From Erysipelotrichales bacterium (lineage in GTDB: Bacteria; Bacillota_I; Bacilli_A; Erysipelotrichales; Erysipelotrichaceae), in the NCBI GenBank assembly GCA_017532345.1, contig JAFXJJ010000070.1, positions 1-53,490 on the forward strand: 53,490 nucleotides of DNA, in the 5' to 3' direction. A model generated the notes under the pieces. It had not been told where the DNA came from. It did no database searches and worked only from the letters and a program-made list of their open reading frames with translations. Shown in pieces: positions 25,619 through 35,818 of the stretch. How positions within the stretch are numbered: position 1 is the stretch's first letter; every line of letters starts with the position of its first letter. A program made the translations under genes and the position numbers.

Positions 25619-27532
25619 ATGCGTAGAAAGTCTTGGAATAGGCTTAAGATTATTGAATATGCAGGGTATTTACTGTTTGGTGCTATAATATGTAAGTTAA
25701 TGTACTTACAAAGCTATAAGCAAGCCGAAATAGGAGAAAAAGCATTAGATTTGTGGGAGCGTTCATTTCCAATCGCTGCAAGTAGAGGTAGTATTGTGGA
25801 TCGCAATTTTGGAGTACTAGCATATGATATTCCATCTACTTCGGTAATGGTAGTACCATCACAAATTGATAATAAGGAAACTACTGCAATGACGCTTAGT
25901 AATATACTTAATGCTGATTACCAAACGATATTAACAAAAATATCGAATCATGTATCCACGCAAAAGCTTAATCCGGAAGGCCGATTACTAACGGAGGAAG
26001 AGGAATTAGCAATTAAGAATGCCAATTTAGGTGGGGTATATTTAGTTAGGGACGTGAAACGGCATTATCCAAATCATTTCTTTTTATCGCAAGTACTTGG
26101 GTTTACTGGTGTTGATAACCAAGGATTAAGTGGATTAGAGTTAGCTTATGATGAGATTCTACAAGGAAGTAGTGGCTCTTTAAATATTCCATTTGATGCG
26201 AAAGGTAATAAGATTGATATTGTGGAAGAAAGCTGGACAAGCAGTGGTAGTGGAAATATCTTAATGCTTACTATCGACTCAACTATACAAGGAATTATTG
26301 AACGTGAATTAAATAATGCGATGCTGACATATGAACCTGACCAAGCATGGGCAATTGCGATGAACCCCAATACTGGCGAAATCCTAGCGATGGTATCAAA
26401 ACCAGACTTTGATCCTAATGATTATCAAGCATATGATATTGAAGTAATTAATCGTAATTTGCCAATCTTCAATTCTTATGAACCAGGTTCTACCTTTAAG
26501 ATAATATCCTTTGCGGCAGCTTTAAATGAGAATGTGATTGATATGGAAAATGAAACATATATGGATATTGGATATGAAATAGTAAATGGTGCAAGAATTA
26601 AATCGTGGAAGGCTGGGGGACATGGGCTACAGACATTTCTTGAAGTACTTCAAAATTCATCTAATCCAGGCTTCGTTGAGATATCTAGACGTTTAGGTAT
26701 TGAAACATTATATAACTATGTAAAGGCTTTTGGTTTTGGTGATAAGACGAATATTGATTTAGTAGGTGAAAGCAGTGGGATATTCTTTAGCTTAGATAGA
26801 ATGAGTGAATTAGAGGCTGCGACAACTGCTTTTGGCCAAGGAATATCACTTACAGCCATTCAATTAGTTAGTGCAGTATCAGCAACAGTTAATGGAGGAT
26901 ACTTATATGAACCATATATTACGAAAGCTATTCTTCATCCATTAACTTATGATGTTTTATATGAAAATGAACCTAAAGTTGTCAGGCAAGTTATTAGTGA
27001 AGAAACAAGCTTTAAGATGCGTTATGCACTCGAGCATGTTGTTGCACTAGGTGGTGGAAGACAAGCCTATATTGAAGGGTATCGAATCGGTGGGAAGACT
27101 GGTACAGCTCAGAAGGCAAAGAATGGCGCATATATGGAGAATGAATATATACTATCGTTTATTGGTGTGGCACCTATTGATAATCCACAAATAGTGCTGT
27201 ATATCGCAATGGATAATCCAACGAACAATATTCAATATGGTGGTACTGTTGTAGCTCCAATTGCCAAGAAATGTTTAACTGATATACTACCATATATGAA
27301 TATACCTACGGTTACTGAGCAATTACCTAAAACATATAATTGGAATGAGATAAAAAGCTATATGGTAGATAATTATATAGGATTATCAGTAGATGATGTA
27401 GATAGTAAGCATTTTAAATTTGTATTTAATGGAGAGGGAGATTATGTAGTATCTCAACTACCCATGTCAGGAACATATATGAAAAGTGGAGGCGAAATCT
27501 GGCTGTACTTAGGCAATGATGAAATTAAGTAA
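25619..27532 (+). CDS. Class B penicillin-binding protein, SpoVD-like
   Basis: This 637-residue transpeptidase starts a second dcw transcript. It has a short cytoplasmic start, a membrane anchor (about 13-30), a dimerisation domain (ASRGSIVDRN) and the transpeptidase with S291-T-F-K (EPGSTFKI), SSN (NSSNPGF) and K493-T-G-T. A C-terminal PASTA-like domain follows (about 575-637). Its place just before murE is that of spoVD in spore formers, but a second division PBP is equally possible. It overlaps murE by 17 nt. Confidence 0.92.
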   Translation: MRRKSWNRLKIIEYAGYLLFGAIICKLMYLQSYKQAEIGEKALDLWERSFPIAASRGSIVDRNFGVLAYDIPSTSVMVVPSQIDNKETTAMTLSNILNADYQTILTKISNHVSTQKLNPEGRLLTEEEELAIKNANLGGVYLVRDVKRHYPNHFFLSQVLGFTGVDNQGLSGLELAYDEILQGSSGSLNIPFDAKGNKIDIVEESWTSSGSGNILMLTIDSTIQGIIERELNNAMLTYEPDQAWAIAMNPNTGEILAMVSKPDFDPNDYQAYDIEVINRNLPIFNSYEPGSTFKIISFAAALNENVIDMENETYMDIGYEIVNGARIKSWKAGGHGLQTFLEVLQNSSNPGFVEISRRLGIETLYNYVKAFGFGDKTNIDLVGESSGIFFSLDRMSELEAATTAFGQGISLTAIQLVSAVSATVNGGYLYEPYITKAILHPLTYDVLYENEPKVVRQVISEETSFKMRYALEHVVALGGGRQAYIEGYRIGGKTGTAQKAKNGAYMENEYILSFIGVAPIDNPQIVLYIAMDNPTNNIQYGGTVVAPIAKKCLTDILPYMNIPTVTEQLPKTYNWNEIKSYMVDNYIGLSVDDVDSKHFKFVFNGEGDYVVSQLPMSGTYMKSGGEIWLYLGNDEIK

Positions 27533-29898: not shown

Positions 29899-29924
29899 CT
29901 CATATGGTAATATGAGGCGATTTG

Positions 29925-30476
29925 ATGATTATCTTACATGCATTGTTATCTAATATTGATACTTTATGTTGTTCAGTAGTATATGGTTATCGAAGAACTA
30001 AAATGAATCTTGTATCAATGCTAACCACATCATTATTTGTTTTCTTATCTATTTATTTTATTAATACCTTGATGGATGATTATTTAATGGTAATAAATAC
30101 GAATGTAGCAAGTAGTCTTAGTACATTCATTTATTTAATGTTAGCTTATGTCACATATAAGGAATATCATAAGAAGAATATAGCCAATAGTAGTAATGTT
30201 AGTGATTTAAACCATGATAATGTGATTAATGTAGTAGAAACAATATATTTAGGAATATACTTTAGCTTAGATAATTTCTTATTAACTTTACCACTTATTT
30301 TCCAAGGATATAGTCCTATTGAAATCGCAACTACCTTTGGCTTTACTACATTTATAACGCTACAATTAGGTAATCAAATAGGCATTACTCTTAATGAACG
30401 ATACTATAAAGCATATTTTATGAAGTATGCATGGTTATTATTTATTATATTAAGCTTAATTCATATTTATTTTTAA
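29925..30476 (+). CDS. YtaF/MntP-like membrane protein
   Basis: This 183-residue protein has six hydrophobic segments in two related halves. Each half starts with a Ser/Asn-Asp motif: SNIDTLCCSVVYGYR (near residue 9) and FSLDNFLLTLPL (near residue 112). That arrangement matches the MntP/YtaF family; MntP exports Mn2+, while YtaF is named from sporulation loci and has no proven transport role. The ATG at 29925 is chosen over the TTG at 29922, with GAGG 7 nt upstream. It lies 27 nt upstream of ftsW and could be co-transcribed with it. Confidence 0.75.
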   Translation: MIILHALLSNIDTLCCSVVYGYRRTKMNLVSMLTTSLFVFLSIYFINTLMDDYLMVINTNVASSLSTFIYLMLAYVTYKEYHKKNIANSSNVSDLNHDNVINVVETIYLGIYFSLDNFLLTLPLIFQGYSPIEIATTFGFTTFITLQLGNQIGITLNERYYKAYFMKYAWLLFIILSLIHIYF

Positions 30477-30503
30477 ATATCATACAGTAGTAATGGTGGT
30501 AGA

Positions 30504-31499
30504 ATGCTTCATTATCGAAATCGTAAATTTCTATTAATTGTTTCTATATTATTGATTATTGGAATACTAGCTATTTATTCAGCTAGTAGTGTATGGGCTA
30601 ATTTGAAGTTTAATGATGAGTTTTATTATATGAAACGGCAAGTAATATTTGCGACGATTGGCGTAATAGTGATGTATATTGTGAGCTATTATGATGTTAG
30701 TAAGCTAAGGAAATATGCATATTGGTTCTTTAGCTTTTGTATCATTCTAATGGTTTTAGTATTAATTCCAGGCATTGGCAGTGAAAGAAATGGCTCTATG
30801 TCATGGTTTAAAATAGGACCAGTGTTATTCCAACCTTCAGAGTTTTTGAAGCTCGCCCTTATTATGGTAGTATCAGATAAACTCTCTAAGAAACGGAAAA
30901 TACGTAAGCTTAAAGATGTATATGATATTATGGGATTATGTTTATTAAGCTTTGGATTAATTATGCTGCAACCTGATTTTGGTAGTGGTGTAGTAATGCT
31001 TTCGGCTATTGTGATTATGGTGATAGTGGCAGGTATACCAATGAAGTATTTTGTTTATGTGGTGATCATTGGAAGTATTGCGATTGTTTTCCTAATTATG
31101 AGTGCACCATATCGTATGAGCCGTATATTAGCATTTATTGATCCATTCAGTGATCCATTAGGAGCAGGATTTCAAAGTATTCAATCACTATATGCGATTG
31201 CACCTGGTGGTATTATGGGCATGGGATTTCAGAATTCAATGCAGAAGCAGTTTTATTTACCTGAACCACATACTGATTTTATTTTCGCGATAATAGCAGA
31301 AGAAATGGGCTTTATTGGTGGTGGATTCTTAGTTTTAGTATTTGGCTTATTATTTAAAGAAGGCTTACGCATTATCAAAAATGTAGAGGATAAATATTTA
31401 AAATATATAGTGATTGGTATCATGGCATTATTTATTATTCAAGTTATTATCAATTTATGTGTTGTAGTTGGTCTATTTCCAATTACAGGTGTAACTTAG
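30504..31499 (+). pseudogene. ftsW: ftsW 5' part, split by a serine-recombinase element
   Basis: This is a SEDS-family glycosyltransferase (FtsW/SpoVE/RodA) that polymerises lipid II. The 331-residue frame carries most membrane helices and the SEDS landmarks QPSEFLKLALI and YLPEPHTDFIFAIIAEE. It stops two codons after the FPITG segment, where FtsW proteins go on with (L/I)PLPFISYGGSS. Residues 1-329 are native; the last two, V-T, and the TAG come from the inserted element. The missing 31 codons lie at 34590-34685, in frame. Excision of 31489-34588 would restore a 360-residue protein. GGTGG stands before the ATG. Confidence 0.95.
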
Positions 31500-31509
31500 T
31501 ATTAGTGAT
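31483..31509. other. Left attachment site of the element (attL)
   Basis: The common core TTACAGGT (31483-31490) recurs at 34582-34589. Just inside the element, 31490-31509 reads TGTAACTTAGTATTAGTGAT, the inverse complement (17 of 19-20 bases) of the arm at the opposite end (34567-34586). The crossover dinucleotide is most likely GG at 31488-31489. Confidence 0.88.
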
Positions 31510-31510
31510 A

Positions 31511-33067
31511 CTACTTAATTAAATCTTCAATATCTACTTTAAAGAATATCTCAATTTCTTTATCTTTACTAATTTCTATATGGTCAATTAGCTCATGCAT
31601 TAGTTCATACGTAGGATTATTAAATAACATGAAATCATTAATTAAATCCTTATAATCATAAGTAGTATTAGCTTTATTATGAAGTTTTTTTTCTTTGTAT
31701 ATTAAATCATTCAGTAAGGAATTATACTTATTAGACATTGTTTTATACTGGTTTTCATTAATAATACCATTTAGTTTATCATCATAGATTTGATTTAAGA
31801 TTTTCTGGTATTTGCTTATTTCATTATTAAGTTGTTTAGTAAGTGTAGTATCATTACTTTTTATATGATTTGTATATTTTTTTAAAAGCAGTGAATTATC
31901 ATAGTTCTTCGTTAGTTTAAGTGCCGCTTTTTTAAGTAAATCAATCACATGATTCTCGATTATCGTATAATTAGTGAAATGACTCGAACAACAACCATAT
32001 TTACTATATTTCGCATAGTAATTACATTCACAGAAATACGATGTTCCTTTCTTATTTTTTCGCGTGATAATACTCATGTTGTGACCACACTCTTTGCATA
32101 TTAGTAGTCCTTGAAGTAAGTGGTTATTCTGTCTTTTATTAGTATAACGCTTTTTCTTACTAAGTTCTTTTTGGACTTCATCAAAGAGATCTTTTGAGAT
32201 TATGGGGTCATGGGTATTCTCTACAATAATCCATTCAGCTTTTGGTGTTTCAACTAGTCTACTAGAGTTATAGCTCATTTTTTTCCAGCGTCCTTGTACC
32301 ATGTGTCCTAAATACATCATATCGGTTGCGATGTTCTTTACTGTTTGTGGTCGCCAGATACCATTTCCATGACTTAATGTAGTGTCAGAGTAAACTCTAT
32401 TTTCATTCTTGTAGATAGAAGGTATAGGAATACCTTGGCTAGTTAATTTACTTGCCACCATCGTTGTACCGATGCCAGTAGCTAGTAGTTCATATATTTG
32501 CTTGACAATAGGGGCAGTTATAGGGTCGATTATTAAGTGATGATTATCGCTAGGATCTTTCTTGTATCCATACTTAGGATAAGTTGCGATATAGTCACCA
32601 TTTTTTCGTTTCGCATCTAAGCTACTTCTAATTTTCTTAGAGGTGTCGCGTAAATACATATCATTGACACTTAATCGAATGCCTAGCATAGAATCACCGA
32701 TTTGTGAATCGTAACCATCATTAATAGCGATGAATCGAATGTTTTTATTTAGAAAGTACTCTTCAATATATGTTCCAGTTTCATATAATTCTCTACCAAG
32801 TCGTGATAAGTCCTTTACAATAACACAGTTAATAATACCTTTCTCAATATCTCTTTTTAAAGTATCAAAAGCAGGACGATTGAAATTAGAACCTGTAAAT
32901 CCATCATCAATGTAATGCTTGTAGATATTAAGACCATTGAATCTTGCAAATGATTCAATAATCATCTTTTGACTCTCAATAGATGAACTGCTTTCTTGTC
33001 GCTCATCTTCTTTAGATAGTCGTTCATATGCAGCAACAACATAGCTTGTATTATAAGGATGTTTCAT
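31511..33067 (-). CDS. Large serine recombinase
   Basis: The 518 residues begin with a resolvase-type catalytic domain: Y-E-R-L-S18-KED with the nucleophile serine, DDGFTGSNFNRPAF, and KDLSRLGRE (85-93). Next come the recombinase domain (about 160-270), a zinc ribbon with C324, C327, C346, C348 and C359/C360, and a C-terminal coiled coil (about 395-470), which in integrases controls direction. Members integrate or excise DNA between attP and attB. The stop is 2 nt inside attL. The start overlaps a small upstream gene. It is the probable agent of both insertion into and excision from ftsW. Confidence 0.96.
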   Translation of the reverse strand: MKHPYNTSYVVAAYERLSKEDERQESSSSIESQKMIIESFARFNGLNIYKHYIDDGFTGSNFNRPAFDTLKRDIEKGIINCVIVKDLSRLGRELYETGTYIEEYFLNKNIRFIAINDGYDSQIGDSMLGIRLSVNDMYLRDTSKKIRSSLDAKRKNGDYIATYPKYGYKKDPSDNHHLIIDPITAPIVKQIYELLATGIGTTMVASKLTSQGIPIPSIYKNENRVYSDTTLSHGNGIWRPQTVKNIATDMMYLGHMVQGRWKKMSYNSSRLVETPKAEWIIVENTHDPIISKDLFDEVQKELSKKKRYTNKRQNNHLLQGLLICKECGHNMSIITRKNKKGTSYFCECNYYAKYSKYGCCSSHFTNYTIIENHVIDLLKKAALKLTKNYDNSLLLKKYTNHIKSNDTTLTKQLNNEISKYQKILNQIYDDKLNGIINENQYKTMSNKYNSLLNDLIYKEKKLHNKANTTYDYKDLINDFMLFNNPTYELMHELIDHIEISKDKEIEIFFKVDIEDLIK

Positions 33068-33179
33068 GATTAATTTTATTTAAATAGATAAGACAGTGTT
33101 TTTCTAGTACTGCTTTAAAATCCTGATCAGTTGATTTGTAGTTATAAAGGAAGTGATACTGCTTATTCTTTCTATTCAT
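33051..33179 (-). CDS. 42-residue small protein upstream of the recombinase
   Basis: The frame runs from ATG at 33179 to TAA at 33051 and overlaps the recombinase start by 17 nt in another frame. A strong GGAGGAA lies 6 nt before the ATG, better placed than any site for the recombinase itself, so the recombinase is probably translated by coupling. The peptide is basic, with a Tyr-rich block (QYHFLYNYKS) then STDQDFKAVLEKHC. I do not recognise a family. Position and size fit an accessory factor such as a recombination directionality factor; this is inference. Confidence 0.7.
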   Translation of the reverse strand: MNRKNKQYHFLYNYKSTDQDFKAVLEKHCLIYLNKINHETSL

Positions 33180-33228
33180 TATGTTCCTCCTCATATAACT
33201 ATATGTTTTTCAAACTTTTAAAATGTCA

Positions 33229-33256
33229 GAAAAAAACTGCACCATAAGATGCAGTT
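33229..33256 (-). terminator. Terminator of the gltD-like gene
   Basis: On the minus strand AACTGCA/TGCAGTT (loop of 8 nt) is followed by TTTTTTT. It lies 5 nt after the gltD-like stop and isolates the recombinase unit from it. Confidence 0.9.
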
Positions 33257-33261
33257 AATTA

Positions 33262-34488
33262 TTAATCTTCTAAGCCTTGAATGTAACGATGCATTTCTTC
33301 AGCTACAACTTTACTATGAGCTACAGCTTCAACAACTGTTCTTGCTCCATTTACTGCGTCACCACTTGCGAAGATACCAGGGCGAGTTGTTTTTCCAGTT
33401 TCATCAGCAATTAATAAACCACGATTATTTGTATCAAGACCTTCAGTAGTTGCAGCAATAGTGTTACGAGGACCTTGGCTAATTGAGATGATTACACTAT
33501 TTGCAGGGTATAGCTTTTCACTACCTTCAACTTCAGTTAAGTTACCATTTTCATCTTCTAGTACATCCTTGAAGATAACACCATCATCTGTAATTTCAAC
33601 AGGCTTTTTATTGTATTCAAATTCTACACCTTCAAGCTTAGCATAACTAAATTCATAGTCACTAGCAGCAACCTTCTTAGTTAACGAGAAGCATGTTAAT
33701 TCTCGAGTTCCTTTACGTAAAGCAGTACGCGCAACGTCCATTGCTGCATTACCAGCCCCAATAACAACAACCTTTTCTCCAAGTTTATAGCTATCAGGAT
33801 TATTTAAATAGTCAATACCGAAATGTACATGTCCAAAGCTTTCACCCTTAATATGTAAAGCATTTGGTTGCCATACACCAGTACCGATAAATACAGCTTT
33901 ATAGCCATCTCTAAATAAATCATCTACAGTAATCGCATGACCGATACGTGTGTTAGGACGAATCTTAATTTTCTTCATTTCTAAATGACGATATTGAATA
34001 TCATCAATTACACTCTTCGGTAATCTAAACTCAGGGATACCATAGCGTAATACACCACCAATTTGATCTCTACCTTCAAATATTGTTACATCATAGCCAT
34101 AGCGAGCCATTAAAATCGCAATTGTAATACCAGCAGGACCACTACCAACAATCGCAACCTTCTTACCATTAGAAGGATGAGGTCCTTGAACCATCTTAGA
34201 AGCATATGTACTTGAAATATAGTTTTCAATGGTAGAGAAATGTACGGGAGCACCTTTAATACCTAATACACAGTGTCCTTCACATTGCTTTTCATGATTA
34301 CAAACAATACTACAAACTGTTGTAAGTGGATTGTTTTCAAACAACATTCTACCAGCTTCATCTAGTTTATTATCCTTTAATAATTTAATAACTTCAGGAA
34401 TTGGTGTTTTAATAGGACATCCCTTTTGACATTGAGGTACTTTACATCCTAAACAACGATTCGCTTCATTCATTACATGTAATGCCAT
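33262..34488 (-). CDS. GltD-like NAD(P)-dependent oxidoreductase
   Basis: This 408-residue flavoprotein resembles the small subunit of glutamate synthase and SudA/NfnB-type proteins. The N-terminal Fer4 domain has C12, C15, C20, C24 and C59, C63, C69, C73, enough for two [4Fe-4S] clusters. An FAD Rossmann motif IVGSGPAG (about 110) and an NAD(P) motif VIGAGNAAMD (about 241) follow. A C-terminal GDAVNGARTVVEA is standard. It lacks a GltA large subunit nearby. AGGAGG precedes the ATG, and TGG-TATAAT upstream is an extended -10 box. It is cargo of the element in ftsW. Confidence 0.9.
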   Translation of the reverse strand: MALHVMNEANRCLGCKVPQCQKGCPIKTPIPEVIKLLKDNKLDEAGRMLFENNPLTTVCSIVCNHEKQCEGHCVLGIKGAPVHFSTIENYISSTYASKMVQGPHPSNGKKVAIVGSGPAGITIAILMARYGYDVTIFEGRDQIGGVLRYGIPEFRLPKSVIDDIQYRHLEMKKIKIRPNTRIGHAITVDDLFRDGYKAVFIGTGVWQPNALHIKGESFGHVHFGIDYLNNPDSYKLGEKVVVIGAGNAAMDVARTALRKGTRELTCFSLTKKVAASDYEFSYAKLEGVEFEYNKKPVEITDDGVIFKDVLEDENGNLTEVEGSEKLYPANSVIISISQGPRNTIAATTEGLDTNNRGLLIADETGKTTRPGIFASGDAVNGARTVVEAVAHSKVVAEEMHRYIQGLED

Positions 34489-34567
34489 AGTATACCTCCT
34501 AGAACTATTTAGTAAATTATACCATCATTATTTAGATATTTCTATTAACAATTACTTTTTTTTAATC

Positions 34568-34589
34568 TCACTAATTCTACGTTACAGGT
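34568..34589. other. Right attachment site of the element (attR)
   Basis: The arm TCACTAATTCTACGTTACA (34568-34586) is followed by core bases GG (34587-34588) and T. The core TTACAGGT (34582-34589) is shared with attL. From 34590 the sequence is again ftsW. Confidence 0.88.
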
Positions 34590-34685
34590 ATCACTCTTCC
34601 ATTCATTTCCTATGGAGGTAGTTCATTAGTATTAATGATGCTTTGTATGGGAGTAATAATGAGTGTTAATCGAAAATCTTTGTAA
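34590..34685 (+). pseudogene. ftsW: ftsW 3' fragment (31 codons and stop)
   Basis: Translation in the frame set by the core (GTT ACA GGT at 34581-34589) gives ITLPFISYGGSSL followed by a hydrophobic helix and a VNRKSL tail. This is the conserved last part of FtsW/SpoVE, including the FISYGGSS motif near the active site. It has no start codon or ribosome site. It only makes sense as the continuation of residue 329 of the frame ending at 31499, across the inserted element. Confidence 0.95.
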
Positions 34686-34732: not shown

Positions 34733-35818
34733 ATGCGAGTTGTTTTGGCTGCAGGAGGTACTGGTGGACATGTATTTCCAGCAATTGCATTAGGTGAATA
34801 TATACGTGATGAAAAACAAGGAGAAATCTTGTTTATAGGTGTTAATGGTAAGATGGAGGCTAATGAAGTACCTAAACATAATCTTCCGTTTATGGGAGTA
34901 GAGGCTAGTGGATTTGTTGGCTCTATTAGTAATCGAGTGAAGTGTTTACTTCAAGTAGAAAAGAATATCCGTTTAATTAAAAAGAAATTAATTGAATTTA
35001 AGCCAGATGTTGTAATGGGATTTGGTGGATATGTATCTGTACCAGTACTAATTGCTGCGAAAGAGTTACGTATTCCAATTATGATTCATGAACAAAATAG
35101 TGTAGCTGGTTTAGCGAATAAACTGCTAGGAAAATTAAGTGATGGTAATGTCATTTGCTTTGAACATGCACGTTCGTTCTTCCCTAGTAATAAGGTGAGA
35201 TTTTTAGGTTCACCAAGAGCATATACCTTAGCGAAAGCTCCTAAGGATTCAAATATCCTTAAAGAATTAGGTATTACTTCTAGTTTACCTTTATGTTTAA
35301 TTGTAATGGGATCATTAGGTAGTGAAAGTGTCAATGCAGCGATGGTTGATGTGCTTAAACATTTTAGTGAGAATAAGAATATTGAAATTGTATATGTAAC
35401 AGGTCCAAAGCACTATGAGGATATGAAGAATGCTTGTGGTACATTAAATGATAATATTCATTTATGTTCATTTGTTGACCAACAACGATTATTACCACAT
35501 TTAGATTTCATGGTATGACGAGCAGGAGCAACTACAATTGCTGAGCTAACAGCAATCGGTGTACCATCAATTGTGATACCATCTCCATATGTTGCACATA
35601 ATCATCAAGTATTAAATGCTAGTGAAATTAGTAATAGTAATGCTTGTATAATGATTGAAGAAAAAGATTTGACAGCAAGTGGAATGATTGGTAAAATGCT
35701 AACGTTGTCAAATGATGACGCATGTAAGAAGATGTTACATGAGAATGCATTACGCTTTGGTAAGATTAATGCATGTGAAGATATTTATGAATATATGTTA
35801 GAGATTATAAATAAGTAA
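34733..35818 (+). pseudogene. murG: murG interrupted by one in-frame TGA
   Basis: MurG adds GlcNAc to lipid I to form lipid II. The frame has the N-terminal GGTGGHVFPAIAL loop and GGYVSVPV. Codon 262 is TGA (35516-35518), then RAGATTIAELTAIGVPSIVIPSPY continues (split by family motif, residues 263-286) to a normal end. Read through, the protein is 361 positions long, the usual size. The TGA sits where homologues have Ser or Cys ([S/C]-R-[A/S]-G). No other lesion is seen. It may be a point mutation, a sequencing error, or read-through or recoding. murB follows after 14 nt. Confidence 0.88.

Follow-up and report, generated by a model that had tools for sequence, protein, structure and literature searches.

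A probable skin-type element in a likely spoVE gene of an Erysipelotrichales bacterium, predicted to be excised during sporulation

Results

We analyzed a 53,490-nucleotide stretch of DNA from an Erysipelotrichales bacterium (GenBank assembly GCA_017532345.1, contig JAFXJJ010000070.1), referred to here as the window, in which a SEDS gene that is likely spoVE is divided by a 3,099-bp insert encoding a large serine recombinase. The features of the locus are the following.

30504..31499, + strand: SEDS gene, likely spoVE, 5' part, 331 residues (PF01098; best NCBIfam model TIGR02615 spoVE, by 4 bits)
31465..31513, + strand: attL, consisting of host arm, core TTACAGGT (31483-31490), central GG (31488-31489) and element arm
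31511..33067, - strand: large serine recombinase, 518 residues, with Resolvase, Recombinase and zinc-ribbon domains (PF00239, PF07508, PF13408)
33051..33179, - strand: protein of 42 residues, its ORF overlapping the start of the recombinase gene, candidate recombination directionality factor (open reading frame and profile)
33262..34488, - strand: cargo gene, GltD-like oxidoreductase, 408 residues (PF07992, PF14691)
34563..34605, + strand: attR, consisting of element arm, core TTACAGGT (34582-34589), central GG (34587-34588) and host arm
34587..34685, + strand: likely spoVE, 3' part, with the conserved ISYGGSS motif and without a start codon of its own (PF01098 remnant)

The 5' open reading frame (ORF) ends in GLFPITGVT followed by a stop, two codons past the ITG motif, and in the region of the 3' part an intact relative aligns with FtsW structure chain 25hr_A. 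The core is exact at both junctions. When the flanks were joined by script after removal of 3,099 bp, a frame of 360 codons with no internal stop was obtained, and no stop or frameshift was present in either half up to the cut, nor in the recombinase. This recomputation confirmed what an earlier examination of the letters and ORFs of the window (the sequence-only reading) had claimed: a SEDS gene broken past its ITG motif, an 8-bp core shared by the junctions, and a continuous 360-codon frame upon removal of the insert. The locus has these features of a skin-type element: a sporulation gene (the spoVE identity being likely, not certain) whose split coding region is restored in frame by precise removal, a site-specific recombinase encoded by the element, and attL and attR sites with a short common core.

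A close relative of the recombinase (E <= 1e-110) is encoded by nine of the 315 genomes of the order, the window's own included. In all nine, the recombinase directly adjoins a cut gene of the same class as the split gene, on the side of the 3' part in seven genomes and of the 5' part in two. The identical codon is cut in every carrier, with 5' parts that end at profile positions 324-328; each 5' part keeps an open frame as far as the cut, and 3' parts were recognized in 9/9. The halves share a contig in four genomes: they are in direct orientation in the window (3.1 kb), G059 (6.6 kb) and G078 (35 kb), the window's element being the smallest of these three, and inverted, 48 kb apart, in G037. 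The remaining five genomes have the halves on separate contigs. Among 60 relatives, 6 of the 24 genes of the class are cut, compared with 0 of 108 rows of other SEDS matches (p 2e-5, from cut counts made by eye), and SpoIVA is retained in the five other cut genomes of this set. Two genomes of one comparison, G060 and G061, were taken as G063 and G078 of the 315-genome set from their matching contig numbers and places.

Homologs of the front half, 120 listed of 6,849, comprise 108 full proteins and 12 that end 2-10 residues past the motif, some of which could be explained by contig ends; two of these 12 are the window protein and a one-residue variant on another contig, perhaps not an independent sample. 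The nearest full protein among the matches listed is 86% identical. Close named records come from two Massilimicrobiota, a Longicatena, a Thomasclavelia, an uncultured Firmicutes and an Erysipelotrichaceae bacterium; the first two genera belong to Erysipelotrichales. Trees of the recombinase and of SpoVE, built for eight of the nine genomes (G080 left out), differ in part, the recombinase of the window's genome (G000) pairing with that of G078, from another family. Because the identities of the two proteins nonetheless correlate (r 0.68, all pairs), both shared descent and transfer are possible. A phage origin was rejected, the best 80 of 284 viral-contig relatives all being 31-37% identical. 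Distant relatives of the recombinase (~26-37% identical) are also found, as three matches in a row, in Bacillota records (L057-L061, L063, L067 and L070), and a second, distant large serine recombinase, 34% identical, is encoded elsewhere in the window's genome (G000:C121:1913-3244).

The element-side arms in the window form an imperfect palindrome around the central GG, in which 20 of 24 positions agree (p given as 0.0000 from 20,000 shuffles). The recombinase and its sites thus combine the three domains of large serine recombinases with an attP that would be an inverted repeat around a central dinucleotide. Arm agreement elsewhere is 18/24 in G078, 17/24 in G037 and G080, 16/24 in the two Massilimicrobiota genomes (whose arm letters are identical), 14/24 in G014, 12/24 in G059 and 11/24 in G019. 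Eight of the nine elements are above chance (shuffle p 0.006 or lower), G019 being the exception with p 0.055. Given this inverted repeat, and the cutting of the identical codon by the same recombinase family in eight other genomes, the arrangement goes beyond chance. Misassembly at either junction, which had been named as a way in which the idea could fail, was set aside as unlikely, because the att arms match and the identical codon is cut in those eight genomes.

Apart from the recombinase, the small ORF and one oxidoreductase, no likely gene lies between the halves. In the window, transfer genes are absent from this interval, so the relaxase and transfer genes that define an integrative conjugative element are not part of this insert. 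The 42-residue ORF, a detail absent from the sequence-only reading, was used together with ORFs beside the recombinases of G037 and G059, all three picked by eye, to seed a profile. Applied to 4,070 six-frame ORFs of 25-200 residues, this profile identified four more small proteins, two of them identical (E 2e-7 to 2e-6), in G038, G063, G014 and G080; those of G038 and G063 lie ~1.9 kb from the recombinase, with another gene in between. Matches in G078 and G019 were weak (second round, E 0.002-0.05), with the G078 match overlapping the start of the recombinase. Seven of the nine elements thus clearly have such a protein near the recombinase, and the other two have weak matches. A Pfam search with six of the small proteins returned no family (best E 0.017, under the cut-off). 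A natural guess is that these small proteins are candidate directionality factors. Relatives of the cargo oxidoreductase are encoded by seven other genomes of the 60 at E <= 1e-90, the best 68% identical, and none of them is on a contig that holds a spoVE half.

The identity of the split gene was assessed by model scores, neighboring genes, promoter and co-occurrence with a sporulation marker, with three further features of the window.

30461..30488, + strand: sigma-E-type promoter, TCATATT and CATACAGT separated by 13 bp, 15 bp ahead of the ATG of the split gene (matrix score 15.1)
25619..27532, + strand: spoVD-like penicillin-binding protein, upstream of the split gene (best model TIGR02214 spoVD, 654 bits; cut-off 688)
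29922..30476, + strand: ytaF-like sporulation membrane protein (TIGR02840, 58 bits, well under the cut-off of 149.6)

The split gene scores 340 bits with the NCBIfam spoVE model, 336 with ftsW and 285 with rodA; spoVE is also the top model for each of five intact relatives chosen from the listed homologs, by margins of 4 to 21 bits. Two further full SEDS genes are present in the window's genome, one scoring best as ftsW and the other as rodA, both below the cut-off. In the set of 60 relatives, which includes the window's own genome, the class of the split gene is found in 24 and SpoIVA above its cut-off in 23. Both are present in 22 genomes and neither in 35; the class alone is found in two (G000, the window's genome, and G058) and SpoIVA alone in one (G007) (p 4e-13). 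Promoter scores come from a matrix derived from 20 regions upstream of spoIVA in relatives; these regions themselves score 2.9 to 17.9 when left out one at a time. Of 190 control upstream regions, 1.1% reach the score of the window gene (shuffle p 0.002). Across 15 genes of the class (nine cut and six intact, with starts set by alignment), the best site has its -10 element 14-22 bp from the start, and scores range from 8.2 to 15.1, with 11 of the 15 above the 95th percentile of the controls. Scores of 0.4-3.2 were obtained for four other SEDS genes; another two were left unscored.

The split gene is thus likely spoVE, encoding the mother-cell cortex polymerase, and not the vegetative ftsW, because the spoVE model is best by a small margin, a spoVD-like gene lies upstream, the promoter is of sigma-E type, the class and SpoIVA tend to occur together, and the genome has two further full SEDS genes. 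The sequence-only reading had called the gene ftsW, in the sense of FtsW or SpoVE; models, promoter and co-occurrence favor the second, and the name ftsW is probably to be replaced, although its model fits nearly as well. That reading had also held that an intact paralog could make the split copy dispensable and so undo the idea of a switch. The two full SEDS genes do not refute it, because they look like vegetative enzymes.

Spo0A and SpoIIP are present in the window's genome, supporting sporulation of the organism. SpoIIID was absent from the matches in 6/6 genomes (G000, G001, G014, G019, G058 and G059), so it is uninformative as a sporulation marker. SpoIIP is present in all six, and the mother-cell program may differ in this group. 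Downstream of the split gene, murG (window 34733-35818) has an in-frame TGA at 35516-35518, beyond which the frame runs on to 35818; this is either a sequencing or assembly error or a real stop. The murG gene is usually essential.

Several of the related elements differ markedly in content. In the one-contig genome G037 (G037:C1:861835-909941; L071-L073, L035), the att arms match while the sites lie inverted, so recombination there would be expected to invert, rather than excise, a segment that contains the spoVE front together with mraY and murD, both named by eye. In Massilimicrobiota An134, the contig ends 55 kb past the 5' part, before any 3' part is reached. This stretch encodes a relaxase and a type IV coupling protein, along with ParA/ParB-like proteins noted by eye and a weak TrbL-like match under the cut-off; the An134 version of the element is conjugative. 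Identity between the two Massilimicrobiota genomes is 97.7-99.8% for the recombinase and two further element genes, compared with 80.5% for the spoVE front and 84.8% for murG. The element moved recently in this genus, because its genes are far more alike than those of the hosts. The 3' parts of the two genomes show 10 synonymous and 3 non-synonymous changes over 37 codons; since the hosts split before the element arrived, these changes say little about selection following insertion. The 35-kb element of G078 (the Thomasclavelia record, L177/L178) holds, as judged by eye, what resembles a polysaccharide cluster, and genes of glycosyltransferase and peptide-modification type. Several of the elements also share, by eye, a protein with AAA-ATPase and PD-(D/E)XK domains (tested in L036 only), at L036 6167-7723, L046 7419-8999 and, in reverse complement, L177+L178 2640-4208.

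Discussion

We think it probable that the insert is a skin-type element in a likely spoVE gene, and that its recombinase would excise 3,099 bp and so restore spoVE in the mother cell during sporulation. Aided by the small protein, the recombinase would join the two GG cores in the mother cell, and the restored spoVE gene would allow the polymerase to be made. The excised circle would be lost with the mother cell; because the mother cell dies, the spore would retain the element and transmit it, as happens for skin in sigK. Both excision and its timing are predictions, the timing being the least supported step, as the promoter match of the small ORF is weak. The sequence-only reading had proposed a programmed or reversible switch on a lipid II polymerase. 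A serine-recombinase element that restores a SEDS gene in the manner of sigK fits our results; a reversible vegetative switch is a poorer fit, and a one-way developmental rearrangement in the mother cell is likelier, because the evidence favors SpoVE and because ftsW-like and rodA-like paralogs exist. That the switch is programmed, we infer. SpoVE-deficient mutants of B. subtilis make spores without cortex, according to excerpts of PMC3906833, and SpoVE of C. difficile has a role in asymmetric division too, according to excerpts of PMC12713402; the role of SpoVE in this group could therefore precede cortex synthesis.

Several observations weigh against this interpretation. A search of the genome's own contigs for the circular (attP) junction (20 bases, allowing two mismatches) gave no match, and neither did an exact search of viral contigs; no search was made for the restored spoVE junction. 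SpoIVA had no match in the window's genome, which is 89% complete, leaving sporulation of the organism uncertain. The spoVE model leads that of ftsW by just 4 bits for the window gene, and all five intact relatives pass the ftsW cut-off (337.5) while none passes that of spoVE (448.8). With a cruder start-codon rule, three genes of the class (G014, G063 and G058) receive low promoter scores. No sigma-E-type site precedes the window's recombinase (matrix score 1.6), and that of the small ORF is weak (8.0, reached by 10.5% of controls). Sites before the recombinases and small ORFs of the other elements are also low and not conserved, except in G080, where a site scoring 9.5 (3.7% of controls) lies 5 bp from the approximate start. 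Finally, the Massilimicrobiota element arrived recently, and need not be domesticated.

The last two points suit the strongest competing explanation, in which a mobile element merely landed in spoVE, sporulation is lost or strongly lowered, and rare excision is tied to transfer of the element and not to spore development. The relaxase and coupling protein of An134, and close element copies in two Massilimicrobiota species whose own genes diverge far more, count in its favor. Yet the window's element has no transfer gene while its recombinase is full length and its att arms match, in none of the nine carriers is the 5' part interrupted before the cut, and SpoIVA persists in the five other cut genomes. 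On balance we regard this explanation as rather unlikely. A reversible switch on vegetative division or shape, acting through FtsW or RodA, is very improbable: the split gene sits in a division and wall cluster, its ftsW score is close behind and its intact relatives pass the ftsW cut-off, but another full SEDS gene scores best as ftsW and a further one as rodA, the promoter is of sigma-E type, and 35 of the 37 genomes without a strong SpoIVA match also lack the class. Equally improbable is a decayed insertion that left spoVE dead and the element stuck, which the missing SpoIVA match and the in-frame stop in murG would suit, but not the intact halves and recombinase or the matching arms.

We predict that at sporulation each of the nine elements is cut out (or, in one genome, flipped), so that the gene would become functional again. 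The wider family includes a conjugative element using this codon as its attachment site; the window's element would be a reduced relative that retained only the recombination unit and one cargo gene. More broadly, and with considerable doubt, we suggest that a family of conjugative and reduced elements across this order of gut bacteria has one codon of spoVE as its dedicated landing site, and that the need for cortex keeps their recombination units alive, down to a minimal switch of 3 kb; in at least one species the switch would invert 48 kb containing mraY, murD and the spoVE front, instead of being excised.

Should excision be shown, a wall polymerase would join the list of interrupted targets, and the phenomenon would extend to Erysipelotrichales. 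The nine genomes, with inserts from 3 kb to 35 kb or more, two of them carrying a nearly identical element, may display stages on the way from conjugative element to minimal switch, and the inverted case in G037 predicts a developmental gene restored through a large chromosomal inversion. Genome annotation would read split spoVE genes of this kind as broken.

Integrative conjugative elements with serine integrases exist as a kind; the An134 relative shares the relaxase and coupling protein with them, whereas the window's element has neither. Intervening elements have been reported in sigK, spoVFB, spoVR, spsM, gerE, kamA and yabG (excerpts of PMC4191935, PMC5595907, PMC6957869, PMC5025042 and PMC10747680). 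Our searches of open-licence PMC literature found no report of spoVE as an interrupted target; the word spoVE does not occur in those five papers, and it does occur in PMC4028888 and PMC517825. Among the known cases, SPbeta in spsM, vfbin in spoVFB, vrin in spoVR, phi12-5 in kamA and yin in yabG (excerpts of PMC4191935, PMC6957869 and PMC10747680) are prophages or prophage-like, and interrupt other genes in other bacteria. The skin elements in sigK of Bacillus subtilis and Clostridioides difficile resemble the window's element in having a large serine recombinase and an in-frame split of the gene, with restoration in the mother cell only predicted here. They differ in that their target is a sigma factor and not a wall polymerase gene, and in that the window's element has no phage genes. 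Skin of C. difficile requires a 72-residue directionality factor under sigma-E control, as described in parts of PMC5025042 and PMC6957869. The gin element, in gerE of Bacillus cereus ATCC10987, is likewise a non-phage element with a serine recombinase, which has a helper protein and a 9-bp common sequence; as given in portions of PMC5595907, it measures 28.6 kb and encodes three recombinases, whereas the element described here comprises 3.1 kb, one recombinase and one cargo gene.

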